Source: a virus
Virus record (IMG/VR): IMGVR_UViG_3300037070_005649
Location: 1-50,065 of that record
Reading direction: 5' to 3' (one strand)
DNA: 50,065 bases
A model generated the notes under the pieces. The model worked only from the letters and a program-made list of their open reading frames with translations. It had not been told where the DNA came from and did no database searches. Position numbers and translations under genes: made by a program. Every line of letters begins with the position of its first letter. Positions within the stretch are counted from its first letter, which is position 1. Positions 28,198 to 45,694 of the stretch are shown here, in pieces.

Positions 28198-28423
28198 AAG
28201 TCAAGTGGGTCGGACGCTGGGACCCCTGTTCCCGGCTGCTGCGCCTCGCCCGCCTGATGTGGACGCGCGGCACTGTGGGTGACGGGCGGGGGTACAGCGC
28301 GAAGCTGACCCTCGCCCTCCGGCCGGCGCTGTTCGCCGTGCGCCGGGAGTGGCAGAGCGTGGCGGTTACCCTCCTGGGAGTGCAGGTCCATTATCAGCGG
28401 GCCTACGGGGGATCTTCGGCTGA
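28194..28423 (+). pseudogene. Small conserved-looking protein with an apparent -1 frameshift near its end
   Basis: The ATG at 28194 opens MKVKWVGRWDPCSRLLRLAR and a compact basic/aromatic protein up to VQVHYQRAYGG (nt 28411). Read on in the same frame it becomes a low-quality arginine/proline-rich extension that overlaps the next gene by over 200 bases and ends at 28634. A one-base shift at the G run 28407-28411 instead gives ...YGGIFG and a stop at 28421-28423. That recreates the TGATG junction seen at every other gene here. So either a G is missing (true mutation or sequencing/assembly error) or a frameshift is used. The function is unknown. Confidence 0.55.
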
Positions 28424-28737: not shown

Positions 28738-28746
28738 GAGAGCCTG

Positions 28747-29787: not shown

Positions 29788-30021
29788 ATGAAGCCCCGGC
29801 GCACGGATCGCCAGGCAGCCCAGGAACGAATGACGCTGGCCCTGGTAGAGGCGTTTCTCGCCTCGGGCCGGCCGGCGGTTTACGTCACTGCCGATGCTAC
29901 TCCGTCCCGGCGCCTCGCCATGGTGATGAATAACCTCGCCGCGGCTTGGGACCTGCCGGCAAGGGCGTCCGCGGAGGGGCCCAGGGTCTTGCTGAGGCGG
30001 ATAGGGGAGGGCGGCCAATGA
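29788..30021 (+). CDS. Small hypothetical protein (77 aa)
   Basis: AGGAAAGTAG precedes the ATG at 29788. The product alternates helices and strands: RRTDRQAAQERMTLALVEAF, PAVYVTADATPSRRLAMVMNN, then a basic end. It has no cysteine or membrane span. The alpha/beta pattern (strand VYVTAD followed by a helix) hints at a small nucleotide-binding-like or helicase-fragment fold, but there is no P-loop. It overlaps the RelA/SpoT-like gene as ATGA and could be its partner. Confidence 0.55.
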   Translation: MKPRRTDRQAAQERMTLALVEAFLASGRPAVYVTADATPSRRLAMVMNNLAAAWDLPARASAEGPRVLLRRIGEGGQ

Positions 30022-30902
30022 CCACGGTCTCGTTCACGGTCGATATGGACCGGCATACGACGATACGCCCCAAATCTTGCCCAGCGTCGTCTGACGGCGA
30101 CCTGGATGCCCTACGACCTGATCCAGCGTGGGAGGGCGAGCTAGGGGAGTCGCCGCTGGTCAGGTTCTGGGACCCGGACCAGCCCCGCGATGCTAGCGGG
30201 CGGTGGACGAGGGGCGGGTCGACTGCTACGGCCATTAAGAAGCCGGCCATCCAGGCGGCCAGGACCGAGAAGGGCGTCCAGACCGTGCCGGACGAGGTCC
30301 TTGACGCCCAGCTCGATGCCCTCTACCCTGTGGCGGAGTCGGCTAAAGCGGAAGTTGACGCTGAGGCCCACCGCATTGCCGTTACCGTGAACATGGGGTC
30401 GCGGGTGGCCAAGGCACCGCTAAAGGGCAAGGTCCGGGCCAAGCAAAAGGCGGTCGACTGGTTTGACAGCGATGTGACGAAGCTCGACGACATTGCGCGG
30501 AATACAATTGTCGCGAACCCTGTCGTTCACGATAAAATAGTAGGGGAGCTTACGGCGAAGGGGGCGGCGGTCCGCCACTTCAAGGCAGAGGAGAACCCGA
30601 TGGGCTACTCCGGGGTTAACCTCAAGCTCCCAACGTCGGCCGGCATGGTCGCAGAGGTTCAGCTCAATAGCCCGGCGATGATCTATGCCAAGGAGCCAGA
30701 GAAGACGGCCAGGGGTATCCTGGGGGACGCCCTTTACGATAAGCTCAGGGCGGCGTCGGGGGTCGAGGGCGGCAAAGGGCATGCGCTGTATGAGGAGTAC
30801 CGGGCGCTGCCGGAGAAGCACCCACGAAGGGCTGAGATAGAGGCCGAGAGCCGGGCGTATTATGACCACATGCGGGGGTTCACACATGGGCGTATCGAGT
30901 AA
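30018..30902 (+). CDS. RelA/SpoT-like nucleotidyltransferase-fold protein, candidate virion effector (294 aa)
   Basis: The ATG at 30018 overlaps the upstream stop. The N-terminus carries SSDGDLDALR and FWDPDQPRDASGRWTRGG (30171-30218), the signature shared with the next genes. The enzyme part (about 95-260) follows the Rel synthetase pattern: LKGKVRAKQKAVDW (basic substrate-binding helix), TKLDDIARNTIV (equivalent to the DxxGxR motif), MGYSGVNLKL (GYxxxN/H), AEVQLNS (the E-x-Q catalytic pair), and GHALYEEYRAL at the end. Rel-like enzymes make ppGpp/ppApp-type alarmones or pyrophosphorylate tRNA. No hydrolase or ACT/TGS domains are present, as in small alarmone synthetases and phage toxins. 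Fold moderately sure; substrate unknown. Confidence 0.65.
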   Translation: MTTVSFTVDMDRHTTIRPKSCPASSDGDLDALRPDPAWEGELGESPLVRFWDPDQPRDASGRWTRGGSTATAIKKPAIQAARTEKGVQTVPDEVLDAQLDALYPVAESAKAEVDAEAHRIAVTVNMGSRVAKAPLKGKVRAKQKAVDWFDSDVTKLDDIARNTIVANPVVHDKIVGELTAKGAAVRHFKAEENPMGYSGVNLKLPTSAGMVAEVQLNSPAMIYAKEPEKTARGILGDALYDKLRAASGVEGGKGHALYEEYRALPEKHPRRAEIEAESRAYYDHMRGFTHGRIE

Positions 30903-32736
30903 GCGGTTCCAGGAGGGCGACGTCTATCTGCGCGAGGACTACTTCAAGGTATTCTTCCGTTACGATAGCGCGGCCGAGAAGTTCTACCGCAAGTTCATGG
31001 ACAACCCCGGGGTCGAGAAAGAAGTCCACTATAGTAACGGTTTGCTCAACGAGGCGCTCCAGACCGGTGAGGAGGTCACGGCGGAGGAGTACCAGGCTGG
31101 GCGGCCGGGGGCGCCGCCGGGCAAGTCACCAAATACCGAGGGTGACCTGGATTTTAGTGTGGCCACCGGCACGGACCTCGACGTGTGGGTGGCCAGGTTC
31201 GCCTTCGAGGAGGGGCAGCACCCACGGGACGCCGGCGGCAGGTTCGCGCCGGCGGGTGGTGGAGCGGATGCCCTGTCCCATGAGTTGTTCAGCAATGGCG
31301 ACTATATATTTCATCGCATAACGGATCAGAACGAATTGGACGGGGCCACTACAGACCTATTCGGCAGGCCACTTACGAACAAAGAGATTAGCAACTTGGT
31401 GGGGGCAATAGACGGGGCCACGCTGAGGGTGTATGCCGCTCATATGAGGGTCCCTATCGCGGGTGTCGCCTCGTCTATCACTGTCGAAGTGGAGCACCCG
31501 CTGTATCGGCAGCGCCGGGAGATTATCAAGGATAGGGACGGGAAGACCATCATCAGGAACAAGTCGTTCACCGCCGTCCCTAATGCTCCATATGGGATGG
31601 GTACACGAATTACAGCAAAACAAGTTCAAACAGCCAGGGCATTGGGGGTGGATCGTATTGAAACATGGGCGGCTGGTGGGCCGGCGGAGTCTGCCAACAA
31701 TGGGTACTACACCTGGCCGCGGCTTGGGTATGAAATGCCGCTGATCGGCGGCACCCTAGACGCGGCATGGGCTGCCGGGTTCGAAGGCGCTAAGACAACG
31801 ATTGACCTCATGCGGGCGCCAGGCGGAGCTAAATGGTGGGAAAAACACGGTACTGGTGGATTGGCGAAATTCGACCTGGACCCGGATAGTGCGTCTTCCC
31901 AGGTACTGGACAATTATCTCGAGGAACGGGGTGTGCGGCTAGGCGGATCAGCGGCGTTCAGGTCCGACATGGAAACGTGGCAAGAGGAAGCGGCGTTCGC
32001 CTTTGACGAAGCCGAGCACCCGCGGGACGCGGCTGGCAAGTTCGCCACAGCCGCCGGCGGCGGGGCAGATGCTTTATCGGCGGCCATGTTCGGCAGCCAT
32101 AAACGGGAGTTCAAGGTCGAGGACGAGGAGGAGTTGCTCGCGGCTCAGGAGCACCTGTTCGGTAAGGCCATAACTAACGACGAGATCGCCGACCTGGTTG
32201 GCGCGGCGGATGGGGCCACCTTAGGGATAGAGGCCTACTACAATTACCATGCCTCCACTGAGTCACACATCACGGTGGAGGTAGACCACCCGTGGTATAC
32301 TCAAAACCGGGTGATATGCAAGTCGCCTGCCGGGGAGCTGGTCATCTACAACAAGTCGTTCGAGGCCGAGAAGGACGCCCCGGCGGGCATGGGGACGCGG
32401 ATCATAGCCAGGCAGGTTCAGGCAGCCCGGGCCATGGGCGTCAAGCGGCTCGAGACATGGGGCGCCGGTAGTTTCAATGGGAGCATGAATGGGTATTACA
32501 CGTGGCCGCGGCTAGGATATGTGGCGGAGCTGGACTACACCCAGAGGGAGATGGCGCGGGAGGCCGGGCTTGGGGAGGTTGAGACCACGGCGGACGTCAT
32601 GCGGGCGCCGGGCGGGCCGGCCTGGTGGAAGAGGAACGGGTCCGCTGGAGTGATGAAGTTTGACCTGGACCCGGACAGTGTGTCCTCCCAGGCGCTGGAA
32701 TACTACCTCGAGGAAAAGGGGGTGAAATTGTCATGA
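30886..32736 (+). CDS. Protein with two GNAT-like domains, candidate virion effector (616 aa)
   Basis: I use the ATG at 30886, overlapping the previous stop, with GGGGG upstream. An N-terminal 85-residue helical domain of unknown kind is followed by EGDLDFSV and FAFEEGQHPRDAGGRFA. Domain 1 (about 31330-31930) and domain 2 (about 32130-32736) are homologous. Each has a strand-rich start, then YGMGTRITAKQVQTARALG or AGMGTRIIARQVQAARAMG (the acetyl-CoA pyrophosphate-loop-like motif of GNAT folds), RIETW, and NGYYTWPRLGY. They end FDLDPDS(A/V)SSQ...YLEE(R/K)GV(R/K)L. A second signature copy, FAFDEAEHPRDAAGKFA, separates them. Likely an internal head protein with transferase activity; the substrate is unknown. 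Confidence 0.62.
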   Translation: MGVSSKRFQEGDVYLREDYFKVFFRYDSAAEKFYRKFMDNPGVEKEVHYSNGLLNEALQTGEEVTAEEYQAGRPGAPPGKSPNTEGDLDFSVATGTDLDVWVARFAFEEGQHPRDAGGRFAPAGGGADALSHELFSNGDYIFHRITDQNELDGATTDLFGRPLTNKEISNLVGAIDGATLRVYAAHMRVPIAGVASSITVEVEHPLYRQRREIIKDRDGKTIIRNKSFTAVPNAPYGMGTRITAKQVQTARALGVDRIETWAAGGPAESANNGYYTWPRLGYEMPLIGGTLDAAWAAGFEGAKTTIDLMRAPGGAKWWEKHGTGGLAKFDLDPDSASSQVLDNYLEERGVRLGGSAAFRSDMETWQEEAAFAFDEAEHPRDAAGKFATAAGGGADALSAAMFGSHKREFKVEDEEELLAAQEHLFGKAITNDEIADLVGAADGATLGIEAYYNYHASTESHITVEVDHPWYTQNRVICKSPAGELVIYNKSFEAEKDAPAGMGTRIIARQVQAARAMGVKRLETWGAGSFNGSMNGYYTWPRLGYVAELDYTQREMAREAGLGEVETTADVMRAPGGPAWWKRNGSAGVMKFDLDPDSVSSQALEYYLEEKGVKLS

Positions 32737-32867
32737 CGGAACCGAACAAGGACAAGGGGGTCGAGGAGCCGCCCAAGCTGACGCCGGCGGATGAGCGGGC
32801 GCTGGACAGGGCATGGGCCAAGGTCCGCGACAAGCCCAAGGCGCCGCCACCGCCTAAGGAGAAGTAA
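32733..32867 (+). CDS. Very small charged protein (44 aa)
   Basis: The ATG at 32733 overlaps the previous stop (ATGA). The product is all charged/proline residues around one short helix (TPADERALDRAWAKVRD) and ends KAPPPPKEK. It has no fold signature. It sits between two GNAT-like genes and carries the strong ribosome site AAGGAGAAG of the next gene at its end. It may be a linker remnant of a split fusion or a small accessory. Confidence 0.5.
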   Translation: MTEPNKDKGVEEPPKLTPADERALDRAWAKVRDKPKAPPPPKEK

Positions 32868-32868
32868 C

Positions 32869-33693
32869 GTGTCGTACGACGGCGACCTGGACGACGCTGG
32901 TGTCGCGGCGCCGGCGCATATCGACATGTCGGGGTGGGCTATGTTCTCGTTCGACGAGAACGAGGCCCGTGACAAAGCGGGGAAGTGGACCAAGGCTGGC
33001 GGTGAGGGCGCCGGTGACGCCCTCTCGCAGCAGTTGTTCGGCAAGGGCGAGCGGGCGTTCAAGGCGCCCGGCGATAAGAGGCTGGCCACGGCCACGGAGG
33101 AGCTCTTCGGCAAAGCCGTGACCAAGGACCAGATCGCGGACCTGGCCGGCGCGACGAACGGGGCCATCGTGAAGATAACCTTGGGCCAGTCCGGTGTTGG
33201 CGGCGTGTGGAGGACCATCGTCAAGGTGGACGTGAAGCACGCGCTGTATACGCAGAAGCGCGAGATCGTCAAGGGCAAGGACGGCAAGCTCGTCGTCAAG
33301 AACAAGTCGTTCTACTCCACCGAAGAGGCGCCGCCGGGCATGGGAACGCGAATGATGGCGAAGCAGGTGGAGACCGCCAGAGAGTTAGGCGTCGCGCAGC
33401 TCGAGACGTGGGCCGACGGCAACAAGCACTCGCACAACAACGGGTACTACACGTGGCCGCGGCTGGGGTACGACATGCCATTGCCTGATTATTTCACGCT
33501 CATGGCGGAAAAGAACGGGTTCAAAAGTCCTAAAACGGTGACTGATCTTATGTGTCAACCAGGCGGGGCTGAATGGTGGAAGGAATGGGGCCGTGGCGGG
33601 GCCGCGACGTTCGACCTGGACCCCGACAGTGTGTCCTCACAGGTGCATGCCGCCTACCTCGAGGAGAAGGGGGTGAGGCTTGGCACTGCTTGA
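32869..33693 (+). CDS. Single GNAT-like domain protein, candidate virion effector (274 aa)
   Basis: The GTG at 32869 has AAGGAG ten bases upstream. The N-terminus has SYDGDLDDAG and WAMFSFDENEARDKAGKWTK, matching the signature in neighbouring genes. The domain (about 33080-33690) is a third copy of the one in the preceding large gene: PGMGTRMMAKQVETARELG, QLETWADG, NGYYTWPRLGYDMPL, then FDLDPDSVSSQ and YLEEKGVRLG at the end. This reads as an ancestral single-domain version next to its tandem duplication. Acetyltransferase activity is inferred from the GxGxR-like loop, not proven. Confidence 0.62.
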   Translation: MSYDGDLDDAGVAAPAHIDMSGWAMFSFDENEARDKAGKWTKAGGEGAGDALSQQLFGKGERAFKAPGDKRLATATEELFGKAVTKDQIADLAGATNGAIVKITLGQSGVGGVWRTIVKVDVKHALYTQKREIVKGKDGKLVVKNKSFYSTEEAPPGMGTRMMAKQVETARELGVAQLETWADGNKHSHNNGYYTWPRLGYDMPLPDYFTLMAEKNGFKSPKTVTDLMCQPGGAEWWKEWGRGGAATFDLDPDSVSSQVHAAYLEEKGVRLGTA

Positions 33694-36600
33694 CAAACCA
33701 GGCCTGGTGTGGACCAGCGTGGTCGACGACCATGACGCGGATCTTGATGGGTGGGCGGCCTTCGCCTTTGAGGCCGAGAAGCACCCGCGTGGCCCTGACG
33801 GCAAGTTTATATCGCGTGAGAATATCACCGAGCAGCTGATCGCCAAGGGCTCGGAGCTCGGCGCGTCTGGTGCGGCCAAGGTGGCGGCCGTCAATATGGC
33901 CGAGGCGGCCATCGCCGAGGGTACTGCAACGGCCATTGCCTGGAACCAGGCCGTGGCGCACCTGGAGAGCTTGACACCGGCGAAGGCCGACTTTGCCACC
34001 CCTGCTGACTATGCCGCCCATGCCGCACTCAAGGCTAAGGGTACGGCGGAGGCCATGGACCCATCCTGGGCCCTGACGGCGGGTGAGGCGGGCAAGAAGC
34101 AGTCCTTCGGCGCGGTGTTAGTTGATGATACCGGACGCTTCCTCCTTCGCGAGCCGTCCGGCCACTACGGCGGTTATGCGTGGACTTTCGCTAAAGGCGG
34201 GGGCCACGCTGGGGAGAACCCGGTCGACGTGGCCGTTCGTGAGGTAGAGGAAGAAACGGGCCATACTCCGGTCCTAATCGGCACGGTCCCGGGCAAGTTC
34301 GCCGGCGACACCACGCTGAATCGGTTCTTCCTCGCCAAGTCCGGCGGCCACGACCCGTCCAAGATGGACGAAGAGACGGCCAGCGTTAAGTGGGCGACCC
34401 CCGAGGAGGCCGCGGCCCTGATCGGCCAGACCACCTCCGCCAAAGGCAAGGCGCGGGACCTGGCACTCCTGGCGGCTGCGCAGGAGGCTCTGGCCACTCA
34501 GGGGCAGCCAAAGGCCCAGTCGGAACCCCCTGAGACCGTAGCAGGGCCCGTGGTGACCCCAGGCGGCGTCCAGCTGCACGTCGTCGGCGGCCCCAAGTGG
34601 GCGGCACGGGCCGCGGCAGGTTGGACGACCTCGGAGACCGGCACAACCGGAAAGCTGAACCTGGTAGCCCCCGATGGTGAAGTCGCCGGTCAGATATATC
34701 CGGACAATAAGGGCGGCTATAAGGCGGTGCAGGCCGGCGGGATGCACCTAGGCGGGTCCAAGAAGTCACAGGATGCGGCATTGGAGGCGGTGGCGGCGGC
34801 ACATGTGTCCAGCGGCAAAAAGCCGGGTGCCCAGCTAGGCAATCAGAATGCCTACAAGGGTGGACCGACTGTGGCGGAGCCTGGTGGCAAGATCAGTATC
34901 GAAGAGGCCGCCGCCGAGCAGCAGGCCCTGACCGATGCCATGACGCCGGAGGACTGGGCTGAGATTATTGCGGAAGACCTGGGTGAGGATGAGGATGAAA
35001 AAGACCTGATATATCAGGTAGAATCGGTTCACAAAGAATTTGCGAAATGGGAGGTGAACCAGGCTGCTGGATGGACATTAAGCGGCTTCGGCACTATGGA
35101 GCTCAAAAACCCATCCGGGGCCGTTGTCGGCGTTATATCCAGCGCCAGCGGCAAATGGCTAATAGTGTCGGGGCCAGGCCAAGGGCCTAAGTCGTACCCA
35201 AGCTGGTCGGCCACCACTAACGCTATGATAGCGGCCTACAAGGCTGCCGGGCCCGTGGCAACCCAAGGGGGCGACCTGGGAGAGGGCCCGTATGGCACAT
35301 GGCCGACGGCAGAGAACGTGCCAGTCGCAGAGTCCGTCGCCGAGGCCGGTCTTTCCGACCCTGAGGACGGGACCCACCTTCACCCGGACGCCAAGCCTTC
35401 TGCCGCGGTCGGGCCGGCCTCCAATCCGTACGGCTGGGTGTTCAAGAAGGGGTCGCAGTGGGCAGCCCTGGCGCCTGACGGGTCGTCGAAGAACTTCTCC
35501 AGTGCCAAGAAGGCCGGGGCCTATCTCGGGACCAAGGCGGGCGCGGACGCCGCGGCAGAGGTGTCGAGCGGGAAGGCGCCCGGGGGCCAACCCGGGAATC
35601 AGAATGCTTACAAAGGCGGTAGTGCCCAGCAGGAGAAGGATAGGTGGGCCGCCCGTAATGACGCCGGGTGGACGGCGGTCAAGCACCCCGGCAACTCCAA
35701 TCGGCATGATGTTAAGGCCCCCGGTGGTGAGCTGGTCGGCCGTGCGGAGTACAACGACGATACCGGCTACTTCCAGGCCTATGACTCTAATGGCACACTC
35801 CTTGGGGACGACTATGCTACCAGGGCCACGGCTTTAAACGCAGTGGCGACGGTCTATAGTAACAAGAAGCCCGGGGCGCAACCAGGGAATCAGAACGCCT
35901 ACAAGGGTGGGGCCGCGTGGCAGGAGAACGACAAGTGGAATGGCCTTGAGGCCACGGGGTGGGACTCGGTTCAGGACACGAGTAACACCCACCGGTATAA
36001 TATCAAAGCCCCTGGCGGTCAGCCGGTCGGTCGTATAGAGTACCGCGACGCTGACGGCCACTACTCGGCCTATGACGTCAACAGCGTTTTCCTTGGCAAC
36101 TACGACATTAGGGCGAGGGCCCAGAACGCCGTCGTGGCAGCCCACAACAGTAAGAATGCCCTTGAGGGAGCGCTGGGTGCCGCCGGCTGGACGAAGGGCG
36201 AGGGAATACTCGGCGGGTCGAAAGTGGTAGCCCCTAACGGCGAAGTCGCCGGCTCCGTGTGGCTGGACGGCAACGGGAATTGGGCGGCGGTCGACGCCGC
36301 CGGGAAGGAGATCGGCGGTCACAAGAAGTCGCAGGAGGCGGCTCTAAAGGCAGTGGCGGATGCGTCGGGGTATGCCGCGGCGCTGAAGAGCGGGAAGAAG
36401 CCAGGGGCTCAACCTGGCAATAAGAACGCGTACAAGGGGGGCCCGACCGCCCTCGAATCGGACAAGTGGTGGTCAGCGGTCAGCGCCGGTTGGTCCCTTG
36501 AGGGCGAGGGCACCATGACGGTCAAGGACCCGACCGGGGCTACCGTCGGGCTCGTGTCGAACGCCGATGGCCGCTGGAAGGGGTACTACACCGCCACGGC

Positions 36601-39600
36601 CGGGCCGATCCAGGACCTTGGGGTCCAGCCGCACTGGTCCACCGCTGCGAACGCCGTCAAGGCCGCCCACGAGGAGCAGGGCGGTACGATGGGGGTTGCC
36701 CACGGGGCCGAGGCCGACCCGGATGCCAAGGAGGCGGCGATCGCCCAGTGGGGCGTGCTGAAGGACCAGGGGTGGTCCCTCGAGGCGACCATCGGCGGCA
36801 TTGTCGCCGGCATGGCCACTGTCACGGCCCCGAACGGCTCCGCCGCCGGCTACGTGAAGCCGTCCGCCAGCGTCGGGGCCTGGGACGCTGTCAACACGAT
36901 GAACCAGCCGATCTCCACCCACACCAAGAAGGGGTGGGCGGTGTTGGCCGTCGTTAAGGACTGGCAGGAGAACAAGGCCGCCGCGGATCAACTGGCCGAA
37001 GAGGTGAGCATATCGCACCCGGCCCACCCGCCGCTGATGGCCCCGGTGCAGGCGACGGGGGCCATCGCCGACGCGTGGGCCGCCCATAGGGCCGCCCTGG
37101 TGGCCAAGGGCCTTCCGCCGGGCGAGCCGGGGCTGCCGGGGCTGCACAAGGCTGCGATTGACTCTGAGCTTGAGGCGGCGATCGGCCAGTCTGACATATC
37201 GGGCACCACTCCCACGACCCAGGGTGGGTCATGGGCTAACCCCGCGGAGTGGCAGCCTGGTGGGACGTGGTCGAACCACCTCGTGCCCAAGCTGGTGGCG
37301 CTCGGCGTCGATCCAAATACGGCCACCGAGTCTGTTACCAACTACCACAACCTCCACGGGGCAGGGACAGCCGCGGTCGGCGGCGACCCGGCCGTGGCGT
37401 GGGGCAAGCAGCTCGCCGCTGGGTGGTCGGCGCAGACTAATGGAATTGGCAGCAGTGCCGAGGTATACCCGCCCGGCGGCGGCATGTCCGTGGGTTACGC
37501 GGTCAAGCAGACGGATGGGACGTGGGCGGCTGTCGGCACCACCACTGGGGTTGGGGTGGACCTCGGTAACCATGCGACCAAGGAGGGGGCCCTGGCGGCG
37601 ATCGTGACGGGCAAGAAGCCCGGGGCCCAGCCAGGTAACAAGAACGCCTACAAGGGCGAGTCCCTTGAGCGCGAGGGCAAGAAGTGGGCCAAGAACGAGG
37701 GTAAGGGGTTCTGGTTCGAGAACAGCCCGCTACCCGACGGCACGCCGTCCAAGTCGGTGAAGGACCCTGGCGAGGCGGACATTGGTCGGATCGTGTCTGG
37801 CGACGGTGACAACTGGCACGCCCTAGGGCCAGACGGTGCCGCCCTCGGCACGTACGACAGTCGGTTCGGCGCCCTCAACGCTGTTGTCCACGCGGCCGCC
37901 CAGCCCGCCAGCGGCAAGGCGCCCGGGGCCCAGCCCGGTAATAAGAATGCGTGGAAGGGCGGGCCGCACGACATACCTGGTATGTCGGATCATGAGCACG
38001 CGGCGATCGAGGTACTTAAGGGCGGGCCACTTGCCTATTCCGAGGTCCAGGCTGCCTGGCCATCGGATATGGACAAGACGTACGCGGCTCAGGCCCTTCA
38101 CAGCCTCGAGGGCCGTGACCTGGCGGAGCAGAGCCAGGATGGGACATGGCACCTGACTACGATACCAACGCCGGCGGCCAGTGGCGACCTGGACCAGCCG
38201 GCGCCTGTTACGACGGCCGGCGGTTACGTAGCGGAGCCATCTGAATTTTATCCTGGCACGCATAACGTTAAGGACCCTGTTGGTCTCACTATCGGTTCCC
38301 TGACGATTGGCCCGTCCGGTTACAAGGCGATGACGGGCACGAAGAGCCTCGGCTACTACGACTCGATGGACAAGGCGTTGGCTGCGGTTGAGACGGCACA
38401 TAAGGGGGCATCGACCACATATCAGCCCGGCACCTACAACGAGGAGGCGACCAAATGGCACGGGCTCACGGACAATGGGTGGGCGACCGAATTCGTAGAC
38501 TCGAAGACTTTCAAGGTGTTGGCACCTGGCGGAGTCCACGCTGGGACCAGCCTTGAGGACGACGACGGGAATTTCGCCGCCCATGGGCCCAATGGGGAGT
38601 CGCTCGGCACCTTCCTGTACCATGTGGATGCCGTTAACGCCGTCGCAGAGGCCTACAGTGGGAAGAAGCCCGGGGCGCAGTTGGGCAACCAGAATGCCTA
38701 CAAGGGGGGCCCGTCCGGAGACGAGCTGCACAAGTGGGTGCAGCAGCATGTAGCGGCTGGGTGGGACCATGCCTACTCCATGCTCAACGGCGAGGAGGTC
38801 GACAACGTCTACTCGCCGGCCGGCATCAAGGGCGGGTACATCAAGGAGGAGACGGTCGACGGTAATAACATCCACACGGCGACCGCCCCCGACGGCACGG
38901 CGTTGGGCTCCTTCGACAACCACTATGCCGCCATGAACGCCATCGTGCAGTACCACAAGGACGTGGGGTACGAGTCGCTATCTGACAAGGGCCCCATCGC
39001 CCTCGGCAGCGGTATGGAGGGTATGGTAGAGGAGGGGAGCGACGACATCCGGGTCATGCATGAGGACCATGGCCACGTCGGCTGGCTGTCACCGGGGGCG
39101 TCCGGCACATGGAAGGCGATCGGCAAAGATGGGATGTTGTTGGTAGCCGGCCTGGACAGGGAGGAGGCGGCCAAGGCGCTCCTGAACGACGCCGTCACTG
39201 GTGCAGGAACGGCAGAGGCCGACGCGGCGGAGGCGGCCGATGCGGCGGCTGATGCAGCGGCACCGCCGCACTACCAGGAGGCCAGCGAGGGCAATGGCCA
39301 CATAGAGGCGGCCAAGTGGAAGGAGCGCGAGGACGCCGGGTGGACGACGGTTGTATCCGGCATGGGCTCCGAGGCTACCATCCAGGAACCGGGTGGGATG
39401 GTGGTCGGCTCGGCCGTCATGGACATCGAGGGTTACTGGACGGCCAAGGGCGCGGACGGCGGGACAATTGGTACCTACCTCTACCACACTGCCGCCCTCA
39501 ATGCCGTGGCCCACGCCCACGATGGTGGGATAGGTAAGAAGCCTGGGGCTCAGCCTGGTAACCAGAACGCCGACGCCAAATGGGCTATCGCCACCGTCGA

Positions 39601-42600
39601 CGGGTGGGGAACATCCGTCTTTGACGACGATGGCAATATGGAGGTTTATGCGCCAAATGGGGAAACGGTTGGGAAGATCCAGCTCAGCGATACGGTAGAT
39701 GCTACTGTACTTGGCGAAGATGGCCTTAGCCACGATATTGGCCAGTTTGGCACTATCACGGATGCCAAGAATGCCATAGTCTCGTACCACAGCGGCAAGA
39801 AACCAGGCGCCCAGCCAGGGAACAAGAACGCATACAAGGGCGGGCCTGACCTGGAGGAACAGGCCAAGTGGGAGGCGCACGTCGACGAGGAGAATTGGCA
39901 GGAGTCGTACGGTGCCGGTGAGGAGCTACTACTCACCTCGCCGGAAGGTGATACCGCCGGGACCGTCCACGAGAACGAGGACACCGGCAACTTCGATGCT
40001 ACCGCAGTCGACGGCGCGTATCTCGGCGAGTACATGACCTCGGCGGCCGCCAAGAACGCCGTCGCGCACTACCACGAACAGACCCAGAGTGGGCCAGGGC
40101 CAGCGATTCACCCCGATGCCATATGGGGCGGCCACGTCTCTGCCGGGTGGGGGTACCACGCCGAGGGCGACGAGATACATATAACTTCGCCCACCGGCAT
40201 CACGGTCGGCGTCCTCAGTGAAGGCCCGCATGGCCTCATAATGGCGCAGGTGGTGAATGGTCCCGACCTTGGTGCGTTCGATAATAGCGCAGAGGCCAGA
40301 AACGCCATAGTCGCCCACCATAGTGGCAAGGCGCCCGGAGCCCAACCGGGGAACCAGAACGCATACAAGAACGGGCCAGCCGACGAGGAGGCCGTGAAGT
40401 GGCAAGCCGGACCCGGCGGATCCAGTTGGTACATTGACAGTGAGGGTTCGGTGTACACCGGCGCCAATATGTTTGCCGGGCGTGTTGAGGAAACCGCTGA
40501 TGGTTGGAAGGCATACAAGGCTCATGGCGGAGAGGTAGGGACATATGCAACCAAGTTAGGGGCGTACAATGCGGTCGCGTGGTCCGCCGGATACCCCTAC
40601 CCGGGGCAGTATGAGGAGTCATACACCGAGGCCACGGCCGGAGACGTGGGCGACCTGGACGTCGCCGCGCCATCGGTTGCTGCGCCGGCCGCCGCAGACC
40701 TGACGGCGGCGATTGCGGCGATCGGCCCCACTGGGCCGGTCAAGCCGGCCGCCCCGTTGCCGTCGCTCGGGACACTGCCGAAGCCCGCGACCACCACCGA
40801 GCTCAAGGCCAAGGTGATGGAGCTCGTCGACCAGGGTTACTCCTCGGCCGACGTCGCGACCGCTCTCGGGGTCAAGCAGACCTACGTCTCGGACCACGCC
40901 TCACGAACACGTGCCCAGCGTAAGAAGGACGTCGCCGCCCTCCAGGCCGGTGCGGCTGCGGCTCCGGCCGCTCCGGCCACTCCGGCCACTCCTGTCAAGC
41001 CCTACGTAGCGACTGGCCCCGTGCCCGCCGGCTTCCCGGCCGAGCCGCACAAGTTGGAGTTCGTCAAGGCCCTTGGCGGGTCGACCGGGGCCAAGCAGTA
41101 TCGGGATGCCGAGGGCGGGCTGTGGGTGTTGAAGAAGGGTAAGTACGCGGACCACGTGAAGTCCGAGTCCGACGCCGATGCCGCCTACGCGGCCGCCGGC
41201 ATCGACGTGCCGGAGCACCACCTCTACGACACCGCGGAGGGGCCGCTGAAGGTCGCCAGGTGGGTAGAGGGCGTGGAGCTCGGCAAGTGGGCGGCGAAGG
41301 CCACGCCGGCCCAGAAGGCCGAGCTGGTCGCCAGGCTGCAGCGCGGGTTCGCCATGGACGCGCTCATGGGCAACTGGGACGTCACCGGGGCGTCCGCCGA
41401 CAATGTCAAGGTGGACGCCACGGGACGACCCTGGCGTATCGACAACGGCGGGTCAATGGACCACCGGGCGCAGGGGGAAAAGAAGGAGCCCGAGCAGTGG
41501 AACGAACACCCGACCGAGCTGTGGACGCTGGACGACCCTAGTAAGAAGACGGCGGAGTGGCTTGGTGCTCCCAGCCATGATACCAAGGTCGCCCAGATGA
41601 AGGACCTGTTGACCAGGCGGGCCTCTATTCTGGCGTCGATCCAGGACCCGGGGCGGCGCGGGGTCGTCGCCGGGCGGCTGGACTCCATGGCCAGAGTGGT
41701 CAAGGCGTCCGATGCGATGAAGGCCGACAATTTCTCGCAGAAGCACCGCGGGGAGTTCGCCCGCCACCAGGTCGGAATGGCGGCCCACGGGGCATTCGGG
41801 ATGCTGCCGAAAAAGCTCGTGCCGCAAGGCGGGCCCAAGTCCGTCACCCTCATCAACCCGGAGAACGGCGTAGCGTTCGACGGCATGCGGGCGGCCGGAT
41901 ACACTCCCGTGAAGCACTACACAGTCAATCTGGTGGAGGGGTCGCACGGGCAGGGGCAGAAGTGGAAGGAACAGGTCCTGGTCAATGGGGCGGTTGTCGG
42001 CACCGTCGAGAAGGTGTCCAGCGGCGTGTACAAGGCCACTGACTCTAAAGGGGAGGTCACGAGGTTTACCACGGGTTCGGCGGCAACCACGGCTATAGCG
42101 GAACCATACAAGGGGGCGGCAGCCGTGGCTGCCGGCGGCTCCAAGTTCAAGTCAATGACCGATGGCGTATACGACTACATCAAGCAGCAGGGCGGCAACC
42201 CGGAGATCATCAAGCAATGGACGGAGTCGCAGGGCGGCGGGTCGCAGTCCGGCCACTCGCTGGCGGTCAAGTACTACCTGGCCACGCAGAACTCCTCGGA
42301 CTTGCAAGGTGACTACTATTGGACCAGCGGTTTGGCCTCTTCCAAAGCGGAGTACGAGAAAAAGGTACAGAAGTACGGCGCAGACGTCTTCCGCAAAACG
42401 ATTGAGGCGTACCACGCGGCGACATATGAATTGCTGTCGCGGGTCGATTTGCCTCACCTCGACCGGGCCGCCGGCACTATCGAGGTGATGAGGTCCGAGC
42501 GGAAGGCCGTCGACAACGCCATGCAGAAGGCCGGCATACCGCAGTTGCCTCCCAGCGGCCCCAACAAAGTGGTCAAGGACCTGAACATCCTGTCCGGGCC

Positions 42601-42820
42601 GCTGGAGTCCTTCTCGCTGATGAAGCGGGTATTTACCGGCGACAAGTACAACTGGCGGATGAAGGTGCCGCTGCACCGGATATTCGGAACCTACCTGACG
42701 GAGCGGGACCCGGGCCACGGTAACTCGCCGTTCCTCGGCGACACCGAGAACGAGATCATGGTCATGACCGACAAGAACATCAAGGCCGAGGCGACGCTGA
42801 ACAAGAATTCGGCATGGTAG
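33680..42820 (+). CDS. Giant multi-enzyme protein: Nudix, linker-repeat modules, HTH, kinase-like, ADP-ribosyltransferase-like (3046 aa)
   Basis: The TTG at 33680 overlaps the upstream gene by 14 bases, with GGAGAAGGGGGTGAGG before it. Residues 35-43 (HPRGPDGKF, after WAAFAFEAEK) carry the shared signature. Residues about 140-270 are a Nudix hydrolase with a perfect box: G173, E179, R187-E188, E191-E192, G194. Residues about 290-2300 are repeated 60-90-residue modules separated by GKKPGAQPGNQNAYKGG linkers. An HTH (SSADVATALGVKQTYVSDH) lies at about 2387-2405. A kinase/PI3K-like domain follows (about 2457-2600: ALGGSTGAKQY, WVLKKG, GNWDV, DNVKVD, IDNGGS). The C-terminus looks like an ADP-ribosyltransferase: R2938 (VMRSER), LESFSLMK (2975-2982), E3023-x-E3025. 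It is probably packaged in virions. Confidence 0.75.
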   Translation: MALLDKPGLVWTSVVDDHDADLDGWAAFAFEAEKHPRGPDGKFISRENITEQLIAKGSELGASGAAKVAAVNMAEAAIAEGTATAIAWNQAVAHLESLTPAKADFATPADYAAHAALKAKGTAEAMDPSWALTAGEAGKKQSFGAVLVDDTGRFLLREPSGHYGGYAWTFAKGGGHAGENPVDVAVREVEEETGHTPVLIGTVPGKFAGDTTLNRFFLAKSGGHDPSKMDEETASVKWATPEEAAALIGQTTSAKGKARDLALLAAAQEALATQGQPKAQSEPPETVAGPVVTPGGVQLHVVGGPKWAARAAAGWTTSETGTTGKLNLVAPDGEVAGQIYPDNKGGYKAVQAGGMHLGGSKKSQDAALEAVAAAHVSSGKKPGAQLGNQNAYKGGPTVAEPGGKISIEEAAAEQQALTDAMTPEDWAEIIAEDLGEDEDEKDLIYQVESVHKEFAKWEVNQAAGWTLSGFGTMELKNPSGAVVGVISSASGKWLIVSGPGQGPKSYPSWSATTNAMIAAYKAAGPVATQGGDLGEGPYGTWPTAENVPVAESVAEAGLSDPEDGTHLHPDAKPSAAVGPASNPYGWVFKKGSQWAALAPDGSSKNFSSAKKAGAYLGTKAGADAAAEVSSGKAPGGQPGNQNAYKGGSAQQEKDRWAARNDAGWTAVKHPGNSNRHDVKAPGGELVGRAEYNDDTGYFQAYDSNGTLLGDDYATRATALNAVATVYSNKKPGAQPGNQNAYKGGAAWQENDKWNGLEATGWDSVQDTSNTHRYNIKAPGGQPVGRIEYRDADGHYSAYDVNSVFLGNYDIRARAQNAVVAAHNSKNALEGALGAAGWTKGEGILGGSKVVAPNGEVAGSVWLDGNGNWAAVDAAGKEIGGHKKSQEAALKAVADASGYAAALKSGKKPGAQPGNKNAYKGGPTALESDKWWSAVSAGWSLEGEGTMTVKDPTGATVGLVSNADGRWKGYYTATAGPIQDLGVQPHWSTAANAVKAAHEEQGGTMGVAHGAEADPDAKEAAIAQWGVLKDQGWSLEATIGGIVAGMATVTAPNGSAAGYVKPSASVGAWDAVNTMNQPISTHTKKGWAVLAVVKDWQENKAAADQLAEEVSISHPAHPPLMAPVQATGAIADAWAAHRAALVAKGLPPGEPGLPGLHKAAIDSELEAAIGQSDISGTTPTTQGGSWANPAEWQPGGTWSNHLVPKLVALGVDPNTATESVTNYHNLHGAGTAAVGGDPAVAWGKQLAAGWSAQTNGIGSSAEVYPPGGGMSVGYAVKQTDGTWAAVGTTTGVGVDLGNHATKEGALAAIVTGKKPGAQPGNKNAYKGESLEREGKKWAKNEGKGFWFENSPLPDGTPSKSVKDPGEADIGRIVSGDGDNWHALGPDGAALGTYDSRFGALNAVVHAAAQPASGKAPGAQPGNKNAWKGGPHDIPGMSDHEHAAIEVLKGGPLAYSEVQAAWPSDMDKTYAAQALHSLEGRDLAEQSQDGTWHLTTIPTPAASGDLDQPAPVTTAGGYVAEPSEFYPGTHNVKDPVGLTIGSLTIGPSGYKAMTGTKSLGYYDSMDKALAAVETAHKGASTTYQPGTYNEEATKWHGLTDNGWATEFVDSKTFKVLAPGGVHAGTSLEDDDGNFAAHGPNGESLGTFLYHVDAVNAVAEAYSGKKPGAQLGNQNAYKGGPSGDELHKWVQQHVAAGWDHAYSMLNGEEVDNVYSPAGIKGGYIKEETVDGNNIHTATAPDGTALGSFDNHYAAMNAIVQYHKDVGYESLSDKGPIALGSGMEGMVEEGSDDIRVMHEDHGHVGWLSPGASGTWKAIGKDGMLLVAGLDREEAAKALLNDAVTGAGTAEADAAEAADAAADAAAPPHYQEASEGNGHIEAAKWKEREDAGWTTVVSGMGSEATIQEPGGMVVGSAVMDIEGYWTAKGADGGTIGTYLYHTAALNAVAHAHDGGIGKKPGAQPGNQNADAKWAIATVDGWGTSVFDDDGNMEVYAPNGETVGKIQLSDTVDATVLGEDGLSHDIGQFGTITDAKNAIVSYHSGKKPGAQPGNKNAYKGGPDLEEQAKWEAHVDEENWQESYGAGEELLLTSPEGDTAGTVHENEDTGNFDATAVDGAYLGEYMTSAAAKNAVAHYHEQTQSGPGPAIHPDAIWGGHVSAGWGYHAEGDEIHITSPTGITVGVLSEGPHGLIMAQVVNGPDLGAFDNSAEARNAIVAHHSGKAPGAQPGNQNAYKNGPADEEAVKWQAGPGGSSWYIDSEGSVYTGANMFAGRVEETADGWKAYKAHGGEVGTYATKLGAYNAVAWSAGYPYPGQYEESYTEATAGDVGDLDVAAPSVAAPAAADLTAAIAAIGPTGPVKPAAPLPSLGTLPKPATTTELKAKVMELVDQGYSSADVATALGVKQTYVSDHASRTRAQRKKDVAALQAGAAAAPAAPATPATPVKPYVATGPVPAGFPAEPHKLEFVKALGGSTGAKQYRDAEGGLWVLKKGKYADHVKSESDADAAYAAAGIDVPEHHLYDTAEGPLKVARWVEGVELGKWAAKATPAQKAELVARLQRGFAMDALMGNWDVTGASADNVKVDATGRPWRIDNGGSMDHRAQGEKKEPEQWNEHPTELWTLDDPSKKTAEWLGAPSHDTKVAQMKDLLTRRASILASIQDPGRRGVVAGRLDSMARVVKASDAMKADNFSQKHRGEFARHQVGMAAHGAFGMLPKKLVPQGGPKSVTLINPENGVAFDGMRAAGYTPVKHYTVNLVEGSHGQGQKWKEQVLVNGAVVGTVEKVSSGVYKATDSKGEVTRFTTGSAATTAIAEPYKGAAAVAAGGSKFKSMTDGVYDYIKQQGGNPEIIKQWTESQGGGSQSGHSLAVKYYLATQNSSDLQGDYYWTSGLASSKAEYEKKVQKYGADVFRKTIEAYHAATYELLSRVDLPHLDRAAGTIEVMRSERKAVDNAMQKAGIPQLPPSGPNKVVKDLNILSGPLESFSLMKRVFTGDKYNWRMKVPLHRIFGTYLTERDPGHGNSPFLGDTENEIMVMTDKNIKAEATLNKNSAW
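34813..40375 (+). repeat. Ten GKKPGAQPGNQNAYKGG linker repeats inside the giant gene
   Basis: Copies start near 34813, 35570, 35861, 36391, 37610, 37913, 38660, 39533, 39793 and 40325. They vary as GK(K/A)PG(A/G)Q(P/L)GN(Q/K)NA(Y/W)KGG. Between them lie modules with a common pattern: KW...AGW...APGGxxVG...DxxGxxxAxxxxGxxLG...ALNAV. Spacing is from about 290 bases (one module) to over 1200 bases (several modules without a linker). The GNxNAxK core resembles short motifs found at the start of phage terminase small subunits. Confidence 0.8.
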
Positions 42821-42828
42821 GAGGGGCG

Positions 42829-43227
42829 ATGAACCTTGAGGTGTGGGGTGGGCGGAGGGGGTTCGACGACCACGGCATGGCCTGGCTGGAGCTCGACATA
42901 GCCGGGTGGCCCGCGCACCCCGACGGCACGTCGGCAGGGCGGGCACGAATTCCAATAGAGGACAGCGCGAGTAGGCCAGCCTTGCGCGCGGGGTATATAT
43001 TCATGGGGGCGGAGGCGGAGGGGTTCCTCCCGGCGCTCCCGCTTCCACCGGACCCGGAGGCCGGGCGGTATGAGGTTCATCGCCTCGAGGGCTTCACAGA
43101 CGACCCCGCCGTGCGGTGGTTGTTCAACGAGGCCGAGGAGGCGATAGAAGCCGGGCTGGACTACGAGCGCGAGCTGACGGCGGTCGACCTGGCTGAGGCG
43201 GTTAAGGCCCGGAAGGGGGTATTATGA
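42829..43227 (+). CDS. Hypothetical protein before the protease (132 aa)
   Basis: AGGAGGGGCG precedes the ATG at 42829. The N-terminal half is beta-rich and tryptophan-containing (LEVWGGRRGF, MAWLELDIAGWPAHP). The middle has PALRAGYIFMGAEAEGFLP and the end is helical and acidic (RWLFNEAEEAIEAGLDYEREL). No known motif is seen. It overlaps the protease gene as ATGA, so it is probably a head-assembly protein or a small regulator of the giant gene's product, by position only. Confidence 0.58.
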   Translation: MNLEVWGGRRGFDDHGMAWLELDIAGWPAHPDGTSAGRARIPIEDSASRPALRAGYIFMGAEAEGFLPALPLPPDPEAGRYEVHRLEGFTDDPAVRWLFNEAEEAIEAGLDYERELTAVDLAEAVKARKGVL

Positions 43228-44186
43228 GCGAAGTTGTGCGTAAAGGCCTGTTGTTCCGGGCTGGCCAGTACCCCGACAAGGGCTATTCGATGACCCCTGA
43301 GGAGCTTACCGCGGCTGCCGCGGCGTTCTCCGGGCCGCTCAAGCTCGACATGGAGCACACGCCGACCCCACTGGACGGGGCGCTGGGCGAACTCAGGTCG
43401 GTTGAGGTCCGCGATGGGGTGATGTACGGCGAGGTCGCCCTGCCGACGTGGCTTGACGGCGAGCTCGAGAAGTCCGGCAATGGACGCAAGGTCTCCTGCC
43501 TGTGGGACCGCGCAACCAAACAGCTGCGGGGCCTGTCGCTGGTCCGTACCGGTCGCCTCGAGGACGCCGCCCTGATGGCCGCATTCTCGGCGGCCCACCC
43601 CGTAGAGGAGCAACCTGCCCAGCGTAAGGGTTGGCTGGCTTCTCTGGTTGCCAAGTTCACCAGGGCCGCCGAGGAGACAGCTGACGAAGCCGCCGCTGAG
43701 GCCAAGGCCGCTGCTGAGGCGGCGTTCACCGCCGAGGTGGCCCGGATTAGGGCCGACGCCGAGGAGACCGTCAAGGAGCAGCGCCGGGTCGCCGCGGTTG
43801 AGCGAGCCGCCAGGGTCGAGTCCGAGTCGGCGGCGTTCGCCGACTGGGCTGTGACGTCCGAGCGGGCGATGCCGGCCGAGCGAGACCAGCTCAAGGCGCA
43901 GTTCGCGCAAGCCCTGTCCGACGACCTCGCGTCCCCCGCCAAGTTCACGATCGGCAACAAAGAGGGCGGGCGGGCCGACCTGCTTCGGTCACAGGTCGCG
44001 GCTCGCCTGCCCCATGGATTAGGCCGCGAATTGGTGGAAGCTCGGCCGGCAGCCGGTGTCACGATCCTCGCGGCAGAGTTCAGCGGCGAGGCCGGCCCGA
44101 GCGGCGGTAACGGCATGAGCGCCGAGCGGAAGCAGAAGCTGATGGAAATGACCTCGCTCGGGCGTTCTGCCCGCGGGTCCAATTAA
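43224..44186 (+). CDS. Prohead protease fused to scaffold (320 aa)
   Basis: The first 120 residues resemble phage prohead proteases of the assemblin/GpI type: LKLDMEHTPTPLDGALGEL with the catalytic His in MEH, a beta barrel, and GNGRKVSCLWDR with Ser in the VSC strand. Residues about 125-230 are a long alanine/glutamate coiled coil (the scaffold), and the C-terminus is flexible and glycine/serine-rich. A single-chain protease-scaffold that processes itself and the capsid is usual just before decoration and major capsid genes, as here. Confidence 0.75.
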   Translation: MSEVVRKGLLFRAGQYPDKGYSMTPEELTAAAAAFSGPLKLDMEHTPTPLDGALGELRSVEVRDGVMYGEVALPTWLDGELEKSGNGRKVSCLWDRATKQLRGLSLVRTGRLEDAALMAAFSAAHPVEEQPAQRKGWLASLVAKFTRAAEETADEAAAEAKAAAEAAFTAEVARIRADAEETVKEQRRVAAVERAARVESESAAFADWAVTSERAMPAERDQLKAQFAQALSDDLASPAKFTIGNKEGGRADLLRSQVAARLPHGLGRELVEARPAAGVTILAAEFSGEAGPSGGNGMSAERKQKLMEMTSLGRSARGSN

Positions 44187-44662: not shown

Positions 44663-45694
44663 GTGCCCACATATGTATATCCGACCAGCCAGGAGTTGTC
44701 GGAGATCGCACAGGAGAAGGCGCCGCGCCTGATGCAGGACCGGCCCGTCTTCCAGATTCTGCCCATCCGTACCGTCGACGCCTTCCTGGTCTCCTGGGAG
44801 CAGAAAGACAACTACACCGGGCTACAGCAGTTGCGCGGCATCAACGGCGAGCCAGCCCGTGTCAAGCACGTCGGCGGCAAGCGATTCGATGTGCAGCCAG
44901 GCATCTACGGCGAGTTCAAGAACATCGACGAGCTGATGCTGATGCAGCGCCGCCAGTGGGGTACCTTCGGGACCCCGATCGACATCTCGGACCTCGTCAT
45001 GGAGGCACAGGACCACCTGCTCGAGAGGCGGCTCGACCGGATCGAGCTGATCGGGTGGACCCTACTGTCGACCGGGACATTCTCGGTCGCGATGCCCGGG
45101 GTCACTGCGTCGCAGGGCGGCATTGCCCATACCGACACTTATCCCCTCCAGACGTATGGGGCGGGCGTGGCGTGGGCGACGGTAGCGACAGCGACGCCGC
45201 TTCTGGACTTCAGGGCGGTCAAGCTGCTGGGGCGGGGCAAGGGCGTGTCGTTCGGCACCGGGGCGCGGGCGCTGATGAATCAGACGACCGCCAACAACAT
45301 GCTGAACAACACGAACCCCAACGACCTGTTTGGTCGGCGCCACACGGGGCTTCAGACGCTGAACAACATGGGTGACATCAATCGCCTGCTGGCCGGCGAC
45401 GACCTGCCTCAGCTTGAGATCTATGACGAGGGCTACCTGGACGATGCCGGTACCTTCCAGCTGTACATCCCGAACAACAAGGTCATCTTGATCGGCAAGC
45501 GATCGGCCGGGCAACAGATCGGCGAGTACCAGATGGTGCGGAACGTCAACAACGCGAACCTGGAGCCTGGCGTGTACATGAAGGTCATCGACCGTGGCGA
45601 CACTGAGGTACCACGCAGCATCGAGGTCCACGACGGGCACAACGGCGGGCCGGCGCTCCATTACCCCGGTTCCGTGGTTGTCATGACGGTCTAG
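44663..45694 (+). CDS. Major capsid protein, lambda gpE-like (343 aa)
   Basis: The GTG at 44663 has AGGAAAGAGAG upstream. Features of the gpE family are RTVDAFLVSWEQKDN, then GGKRFDVQPGIYGEFKNIDE, WGTFGTPIDISDLVMEAQDHL (spine helix), MNQTTANNMLNN, and the C-terminal IPNNKVILIGKR before VNNANLEPGVYM. Length of about 343 matches lambda E (341). This is the HK97-fold capsid subunit. Its neighbours (decoration upstream, joining genes downstream) agree. Confidence 0.86.
   Translation: MPTYVYPTSQELSEIAQEKAPRLMQDRPVFQILPIRTVDAFLVSWEQKDNYTGLQQLRGINGEPARVKHVGGKRFDVQPGIYGEFKNIDELMLMQRRQWGTFGTPIDISDLVMEAQDHLLERRLDRIELIGWTLLSTGTFSVAMPGVTASQGGIAHTDTYPLQTYGAGVAWATVATATPLLDFRAVKLLGRGKGVSFGTGARALMNQTTANNMLNNTNPNDLFGRRHTGLQTLNNMGDINRLLAGDDLPQLEIYDEGYLDDAGTFQLYIPNNKVILIGKRSAGQQIGEYQMVRNVNNANLEPGVYMKVIDRGDTEVPRSIEVHDGHNGGPALHYPGSVVVMTV

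Follow-up and report, generated by a model that had tools for sequence, protein, structure and literature searches.

The 50,065-base virus record IMGVR_UViG_3300037070_005649, analysed over its whole length and called the window below, carries a block of predicted effector proteins at positions 30018 to 42820, between a gene for a Mu-type portal protein and a gene for a probable head maturation protease. Five proteins or domains of this block share a peptide tag of about 16 residues. In our analysis this shared tag is real and extends far beyond the window: it is found in other phages next to many kinds of module, stands on the N-terminal side of them and is conserved mainly as protein, not as DNA. 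We propose, giving the idea an even chance of being right, that the tag is an N-terminal address, or docking peptide, which directs the modules joined to it to the interior of the phage head by bringing them into the prohead.

The tag and its five copies in the window

The tag has two forms. The F-type reads HPRDxxG(K/R)F and is preceded by F-(D/E)-E; the W-type reads (Q/E)PRD- or (E/Q)ARDxxG(K/R)W and is preceded by F-(D/N)-P, which lies one residue closer. Gly/Ser-rich sequence follows the tag. An earlier note on this DNA had described five copies, and profile matches are indeed found at these five places, between 30162 and 33826, and nowhere else in the record. The profile comes from an alignment (A4) of 55 tags that includes the five of the window. 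All five copies are on the plus strand: copy 1 (W-type, DPDQPRDASGRWT) at 30162..30230, copy 2 (F-type, FEEGQHPRDAGGRF) at 31198..31269, copy 3 (F-type, FDEAEHPRDAAGKF) at 31996..32067, copy 4 (W-type, DENEARDKAGKWT) at 32950..33012 and copy 5 (F-type and the weakest, FEAEKHPRGPDGKF) at 33761..33826.

A profile made from the tags of other phages only gives these copies, in the same order, 25.8, 27.3, 31.4, 8.7 and 8.6 bits, and the highest score among 2000 shuffled sequences, made from four proteins at 500 shuffles each, is 6.9 bits. When all 701 open reading frames (ORFs) of the window are scanned with this profile, three copies are clear (E 4.3e-9, 8.3e-8 and 2.8e-7), the copy at 33761 is weak (E 0.066, with a best reversed-sequence control of E 2.1) and the copy at 32950 is not reported. 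The latter is recovered (E 2.5e-6), together with the copy at 30162 (E 1.1e-8), by a W-type profile built from 20 tags of other phages, 18 of them distinct.

The signature given in the earlier note has to be amended in two respects. The string DGDLD is missing from the copy at 31996 and is not part of the general signature; in 112 tags from other phages, the 12 residues upstream of the tag core hold little information (0.3-0.9 bits). The string HPRDxxG(K/R)(F/W), ascribed to all five copies, holds for the three of the F-type, but the copies at 30162 and 32950 are of the W-type, with QPRD..GRW and ARD..GKW. The count of five tagged proteins or domains stands, but three of the five tags are on paralogous GNAT-like units (50% identity), and the five copies therefore represent three independent attachments.

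Distribution in other genomes

A DNA pattern for F(D/E)ExxHPRDxxG(K/R)F matches at least 120 stretches in IMG/VR, and a second pattern, for the W-type, also matches at least 120. The tag samples used here are the matches listed from these two pattern scans and are not random draws; the W-type sample overlaps the first, with loci L009 and L057 excluded from its direction test and L194 lying on the same contig as L080. Matches to a looser motif number 197 in the ORFs fetched and 3 in the reversed versions of these ORFs; most of the 197 are the matches by which the loci were fetched. The profile search in these loci took in 48 records, a subset of those behind the 120 loci, and the counts of portal, DUF2213 and MuF domains refer to 46 of the 48, two near-duplicates being omitted.

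Among named phages, three short queries returned 19 records at E values of up to 10, several of them from one phage or from near relatives; four of the 19 are annotated as portal, two of these from one phage. The tag profile matches in the phages Forza, FP_Brigit and Orimi01 at E 1.6e-6 or better. In Forza, a Gordonia phage that grows on G. terrae, the tagged protein is gp78, in which a kinase-like domain comes after the tag; its gene follows that of the portal (gp77) directly and precedes that of the protease (gp84). The F-type DNA pattern is found in 17 stretches of a genome collection of 257 billion bases. In two sets of cellular genomes the profile, at E 1e-5, matches 2 of 274 and 2 of 291, one of each being the seed; with the seeds set apart, 1 of 273 and 1 of 290 match, that is two matches in 563 genomes, the first of which is a phage portal while the second lies in a frame of 38 amino acids.

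Position, direction and conservation

The position of the tag was assessed in the 15 records that have a portal of the PF06381 family, all of which also have a DUF2213 protease, and only tags at E<=1e-4 were counted. Between portal and protease lie 23 of the 29 tags, with 3.9 expected under uniform placement; of the remaining six, the protease protein carries two, and four lie outside the block. The direction of the tag is pronounced: fewer than 60 residues precede it in 35 of 97 cases and follow it in 3 of 88 (P 1e-8), and in the W-type sample the corresponding figures are 27 of 112 and 1 of 92. The tag lies N-terminal to the modules and seldom near protein ends.

Conservation was analysed with 131 of 147 tags, seven groups that come from duplicate or near-duplicate contigs being omitted and pairs with similar flanks excluded. 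At identical residues of tags from the same record, synonymous codons agree at 0.479, where 0.423 is expected, which does not support a DNA-level repeat as the main cause of conservation; the tag is conserved mainly as protein. Tags of one genome are also alike beyond the core. At non-core tag positions, between tags with unrelated flanks, agreement is 0.313 within records and 0.176 between them, while in three flank controls it is 0.073 within and 0.066 between, 0.069 and 0.065, and 0.079 and 0.066. For tags in different ORFs of one record the value is 0.270, against the same 0.176, and in 22 of 28 records it exceeds the mean between records. When record labels are permuted over the 15 tag columns, the observed value is reached in 0 of 1000 permutations. 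The W-type sample behaves in the same way (0.461 within and 0.318 between records, 0 of 500 permutations, controls of 0.071 and 0.067 and of 0.088 and 0.071).

Modules joined to the tag

As the earlier note had predicted, the tag profile turns up enzymes of unrelated kinds that carry this tag in the region from portal to protease in other phages. The opposite outcome named there, in which all hits would be to unrelated proteins at random places, did not occur. The 131 tags precede 96 clusters (BLAST, E 1e-3), which is an upper bound on the number of families. Pfam was used to scan 71 of 74 segments on the N-terminal side of tags and 103 of 108 on the C-terminal side, second tags of one protein and near-duplicates being omitted; all tallies count members and not independent origins. 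On the N-terminal side the matches are to Phage_portal_3 (14), Portal_Mu (5), Phage_portal_2 (4) and MuF (4), and also to Nudix, Acb1, 2H and others. Phage_portal_2 was matched in none of the 31 records tested for it (those that lack PF06381), yet it is present in four of these segments. On the C-terminal side they are to topoisomerase IB (6), zeta toxin (4), ADP-ribosyltransferase (ART; 4), DUF2213 protease, LPD3, PBECR3 and PI3/PI4-type kinase (3 each), and also to Nudix, SAM lyase, CdiA-C and others. In the W-type sample 79 of 112 tagged ORFs, chosen by size limits, were scanned as whole proteins, and one protein may match several families; here we find MuF (11), ART (7), zeta toxin (5), Phage_portal (5), Phage_portal_3 (3), topoisomerase IB (3), capsid (3) and S78 protease (3). 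In one scan of ten tagged proteins, seven, including gp78 of Forza, have no match in Pfam.

Single proteins illustrate how the modules are combined. One of 1354 amino acids (L008) has six tags, with a kinase-type domain above the Pfam cut-off after one of them and ParB- and GNAT-like matches below the curated cut-off after two others. Further arrangements are portal-tag-kinase-Nudix-tag with an additional ART match below the cut-off (L064), Nudix-tag-ART (L156), 2H (below the cut-off)-tag-tag-topoisomerase (L101), MuF (below the cut-off)-RelA-tag-tag-tag (L023) and DUF2213-tag-ART-like, the ART being recognized by eye (L159). Three single ORFs, from an analysis that took in 41 records, combine a tag, an effector-like part, a protease-like part and a PF05065 capsid part (L195:1897-5442, L205:3327-7514 and L206:1899-6197, the last two near-duplicates). 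The protease-like part is called S78 by inference from the tally above, and the three ORFs are possible capsid polyproteins that include an effector. Free-standing tagged proteins are also found, among them an ART (L147) and PBECR3 RNases (L152 and L163). In four of six small tagged proteins from L147, L148 and L150 (records G035 and G023) a basic YRxRR-like stretch, recognized by eye, stands before the tag.

Possible roles of the tag

If the tag is an address for the inside of the head, a head component that is shared within one phage and differs between phages would bind it and bring the module into the prohead; candidate readers are the inner capsid surface, the portal, the scaffold or the protease. 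The modules would then be ejected along with the DNA to act in the newly infected cell. In the window the load would consist of a Tas1-like (p)ppApp synthetase, three GNAT-like enzymes and a long protein with a Nudix domain, repeats and a HipA-like kinase domain, and a Tis1-like domain would keep the producing cell safe during synthesis of this enzyme. With its roughly 16 residues the tag would here take the role ascribed to the MuF domain in toxins that join this domain to a (p)ppApp synthetase. We infer that the tagged proteins are packaged, and propose their delivery to a host by analogy with the known polyvalent and MuF proteins. The strongest point in favour of an address comes from free-standing proteins in which the tag is close to the N-terminus; four of these proteins lie well away from the portal-protease block (in records G023 and G035). 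A more far-reaching proposal is that of a portable cargo-loading peptide, used across unrelated tailed phages, able to make virion cargo of almost any enzyme, read by a phage-specific head component independently of MuF and serving exchangeable injected arsenals that include toxin-immunity pairs such as Tas1-Tis1. This we put forward tentatively, as a possibility with the chances somewhat against it.

Several observations weigh against an address. Modules fused to a portal or protease would reach the head without one; there the tag must serve another purpose or have come along with the module by inheritance. Of the 46 tagged records 26 have MuF, so that the tag is no general replacement for it. 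In Forza gp78 is tagged and the neighbouring gp80, an ART, is not; the tag is thus not universal within a block. In phage 7-7-1 a protein annotated as baseplate hub, outside the head, contains a tag-like sequence (E 3.7e-5). Many of the tags counted between portal and protease are in the portal ORF itself, and the position test therefore depends on how the records were found; moreover, this region is the usual place of known packaged effectors anyway. Two of the four cellular genomes with an exact pattern match have no profile match at E 1e-5, which implies that some of the 17 genome matches are due to chance. Finally, tags of the same ORF agree at 0.541, more strongly than those of different ORFs (0.270). 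Because of this value and the slight codon excess, copying between neighbouring modules accounts for part of the within-genome likeness.

The main rival to an address is that the head maturation protease recognizes the tag or cuts at it, so that modules produced in fusion with portal, MuF, protease or one another would be separated in the prohead. In T4 the targeting peptide is removed, and the head protease trims packaged proteins. Tags mark the joints of fused modules, with a domain-sized spacing of 98-493 amino acids in 36 of 39 gaps, and they occur on protease and protease-capsid proteins, which is the strongest point for cleavage; the joints include portal-tag-effector, DUF2213-tag-ART-like (L159) and tag-effector-like-protease-like-capsid. 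A DUF2213 protease accompanies every PF06381 portal in our records, and the head protease of P1 is described as trimming the packaged protein DarA (PMC12810830). Nevertheless, many tags lie fewer than 60 residues from the ORF start, where cutting would free nothing large, and the one-residue difference between F-(D/E)-E and F-(D/N)-P leaves no constant upstream site. In the three protease-capsid fusions, two of them near-duplicates, no tag was seen by eye beside the capsid part. We consider a cleavage site unlikely as the role of the tag, although an address and a protease site could both hold.

The Gly/Ser-rich sequence after the tag, the many module types joined to it and a codon agreement slightly above expectation would also fit a structured flexible linker, or a recombination joint of exchangeable modules, that has no binding partner. 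The strong direction and the near-random synonymous codons are not expected of such a passive joint, and neither are the likeness within genomes, which is seen across different ORFs and in the second sample, and the near absence of the tag from the cellular genomes searched; a linker or joint therefore seems quite improbable to us. We think it very improbable that the tag acts after ejection, for instance by keeping the modules from folding, guiding their passage through the tail or switching them on in the host. The N-terminal position and the portal fusions would fit such a role, but nothing specific to it was found, and tags also occur on DUF2213- and capsid-fused proteins, which need not leave the head whole.

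A Tas1-like synthetase and its likely antidote

The first gene of the block (30018..30902, plus strand, with its ATG at 30018) encodes a tagged protein of 294 amino acids. The RelA/SpoT-like domain that the earlier note had seen in it can be named more precisely as Tas1-like (PDB 6ox6_A, E 3.8e-43). The match covers residues 91-286, along the synthetase domain, and the motif runs RVAKAP-K, ARNTI, GYSGVN and E-(V/I)-Q-(L/V)-NSP-MIYAKE of Tas1 are kept. The product is thus a predicted Tas1-like synthetase of the (p)ppApp-synthetase family. Tas1 makes (p)ppApp. The same product is reported for Apk2, a related MuF-fused synthetase (PMC12226406).

The next ORF (30862..32736, plus strand, 624 amino acids) overlaps the end of the Tas1-like gene and begins with a Tis1-like immunity domain that the earlier note did not mention. 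It lies at about 30892-31101 (residues 11-80; PF24154, E 3.8e-14; 6ox6_B, E 1.8e-7) and continues without a stop into tag-GNAT-tag-GNAT. The Tis1-like domain is the likely antidote of the adjacent synthetase, a predicted toxin.

Close relatives of the Tas1-like gene were not confirmed in the IMG/VR scans, and the Tas1-like query gave weak matches in three named-phage records. Synthetase-like domains, scored without the tag, are present in the W-type contigs L197 (E 3.3e-9) and L242 (E 8.2e-6) and further in L282 (E 1e-4), L221 (E 0.002) and L171 (E 0.002); they come after W-type tags in L197, L242 and, weakly, L221, the tag positions being read by eye. No Tis1 homologue was found at E<=1 in the other loci searched.

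The GNAT-like proteins and the 3046-residue protein

A third tagged GNAT-like protein (32869..33693, plus strand, 274 amino acids) starts at a GTG, with an in-frame ATG upstream at 32791, and shares 50% identity with either GNAT unit of the preceding gene. None of the three GNAT-like domains of the earlier note has a sequence match in Pfam or PDB, and their assignment is supported by fold only. In Foldseek the AlphaFold model of the third protein (pLDDT 69.6) is closest to ICL2 with acetyl-CoA (E 4.9e-4) and the acetyltransferase Naa50 (E 9.4e-4), the two matches below E 0.001. The remainder of the 50 matches listed consists mostly of acetyltransferases and ICL2 chains, and the TM-scores are low. 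The C-terminal domain of ICL2 is GNAT-like. A tblastn search of named phages with the third GNAT found nothing, and a GNAT homologue is present in the W-type contig L232 (E 1.5e-15).

The last gene of the block (33680..42820, plus strand) encodes 3046 amino acids, arranged as tag, Nudix domain, 19 repeats, HipA-like kinase domain and an unassigned C-terminus. The Nudix domain of the earlier note is borne out (PF00293, E 1.4e-13, residues 140-247) and lies at 34097..34420 on the plus strand. The repeats, of about 70 amino acids, are degenerate. Eighteen of the 19, together with ten linkers of the GK(K/A)PG(A/G)Q(P/L)GN(Q/K)NA type, form an array at 34595..40579 on the plus strand. The repeat search gave 21 rows, of which two (E 0.55 and 1) were dropped, and Tandem Repeats Finder reports no array of a unit of about 70 amino acids in 33680-42820. 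We also considered the linker GKKPGAQPGNQNAYKGG as a second universal tag, which is not supported: the linker pattern gave 0 stretches in IMG/VR, and neither linkers of this type nor the repeat were found in the other tagged loci compared.

The kinase-like domain (41000..41704, plus strand) is supported as HipA-like by homologues and fold, with a low-confidence model. It has homologues in named phages and also in proteins of other phages that carry the tag, a further one is in the W-type contig L270 (E 4e-12), and HipT and HipA are among the best Foldseek matches (from E 2.6e-4), alongside other kinases, for a model with a pLDDT of 57. Close relatives of the kinase and C-terminal region were not confirmed in the IMG/VR scans. 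The C-terminal region (42200..42820, plus strand) had been proposed to be an ADP-ribosyltransferase by a reading of motifs. This is not confirmed: Pfam and PDB sequence searches give no ART match, and an hhalign comparison with three tagged ARTs gives a probability of 0.1. The assignment of the last 200 residues is uncertain. Nudix and HipA-like kinase homologues lie near each other at the tagged loci L064, L031 and L087, and Nudix and ART are close together at L156. Neighbouring Nudix and kinase or ART domains, like the Nudix and kinase of this window, are perhaps a functional set.

Genes flanking the block

The portal protein that the earlier note placed upstream of the block is encoded at 24618..26207 on the plus strand (Portal_Mu PF06074, E 1.7e-46; phrog_113). 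The block does not follow it directly, as about 3.8 kilobases with several ORFs separate the portal end at 26207 from 30018. Shortly downstream of the portal lies a protein (26903-27541) with matches to phrog_3000 (E 8.6e-21) and the endolysin family phrog_33083 (E 3e-6), and between the portal and the effector block lies a right-handed beta-helix protein (28747-29778; PF13229, E 3.6e-8). This part of the window also has five copies of a 30-base sequence that starts with CTGATG, at 27765, 27950, 28156, 28420 and 28744 (range 27765-28773), which are 80-100% identical to the first. In the last two copies the ATG starts a listed ORF (104 amino acids at 28423 and the 343-residue beta-helix ORF at 28747), and some of the stretches encoded at the repeats carry Cys-x-x-Cys pairs. 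The repeats look like a copied start region.

Downstream of the block, the protein encoded at 43224..44186 on the plus strand is the probable head maturation protease. It has no match in Pfam or PHROG, and the assignment made in the earlier note stands as a probable one, given its position and a weak hhalign match to six DUF2213 domains (probability 32, P 4.9e-4). It is followed by the major capsid protein (44663..45694, plus strand; PF03864, E 5e-12; phrog_29, E 6.1e-18). PF04233, the MuF domain, is not matched in the whole record, and the scan of the block proteins with all of Pfam gave no MuF model. PADLOC found nothing in the four block proteins, and PF14550 has no match in the window.

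Comparison with known systems

The selection of unrelated internal head proteins for packaging is understood for few phages, and a tag that can be searched for in sequences makes it a testable question. Such a tag would lead to injected effectors with domains unlike anything known, given the 96 clusters downstream of 131 tags, and it might allow chosen proteins to be loaded into phage heads. Whether phages deliver enzymes that make (p)ppApp is a question raised by the tagged Tas1-like toxin, which here lies next to its likely antidote among head genes. We found no published description of the shared tag in a literature that included few subscription papers and in which motifs are hard to find as text; the tag, its two forms, its direction and its within-genome likeness seem to be new.

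Two systems offer parallels to the tag itself. The capsid-targeting sequence of T4 is a short N-terminal signal on packaged internal proteins, as the present tag would be, and no resemblance between the two sequences is known to us. Unlike it, the tag spans several portal families and also occurs inside long proteins. The cargo-loading peptides of encapsulins likewise combine a short peptide with a flexible linker and load unrelated enzymes into a shell of the HK97 fold; they are usually C-terminal on their cargo, whereas the tag is N-terminal to the modules.

The content of the block is closest to polyvalent proteins, large proteins of many domains among which Iyer et al. (2017, PMC5512222) describe ART, kinase, GNAT, RelA/SpoT, Nudix, PBECR and InPase domains encoded among head genes and proposed to be injected. 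As in these, disparate enzymes stand in one polypeptide (Nudix and, from a low-confidence model, HipA-like kinase in the 3046-residue protein), and the genes lie among the virion (late) genes, between Portal_Mu and the PF03864 capsid. The difference is the tag, as the abstract and consulted sections of that work describe no short shared peptide. Metallopeptidase domains, given there as the commonest element, are matched nowhere in the block by Pfam.

The MuF toxins, especially Apk2 (PMC5576092, PMC12226406), are similar in that a (p)ppApp synthetase and an adjacent immunity gene are placed in the head region. The toxins described by Jamet et al. (2017) and Paulet et al. (2025) have an N-terminal MuF domain, whereas here the synthetase is preceded by a tag of about 16 residues and the Tis1-like domain shares its ORF with tagged GNATs. 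MuF toxin genes also follow the portal gene directly, unlike the block. Tas1 and Tis1 of Pseudomonas aeruginosa (PDB 6ox6) are also encoded by adjacent genes, and the block shares with them the homologous synthetase with its motifs and a Tis1-type immunity domain in the overlapping next ORF; only residues 241-434 of the Tas1 chain are matched, and the preceding 90 residues of the phage protein hold the tag.

Multidomain effectors carried in the virion, whose domains include ART, Nudix, GNAT, kinase and RelA/SpoT and which are encoded close to portal and MuF, are known from two studies (PMC5512222, PMC9503650), as are MuF-fused (p)ppApp synthetases with immunity proteins (PMC12226406, PMC11699363). 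A set of effectors in the MuF position is, on the published description (PMC5512222), of an already known kind, and what the earlier note adds to it is the tag. By content and place the block belongs with the known virion-effector systems, and it stands outside the MuF family because the domain that defines that family is not found in it.

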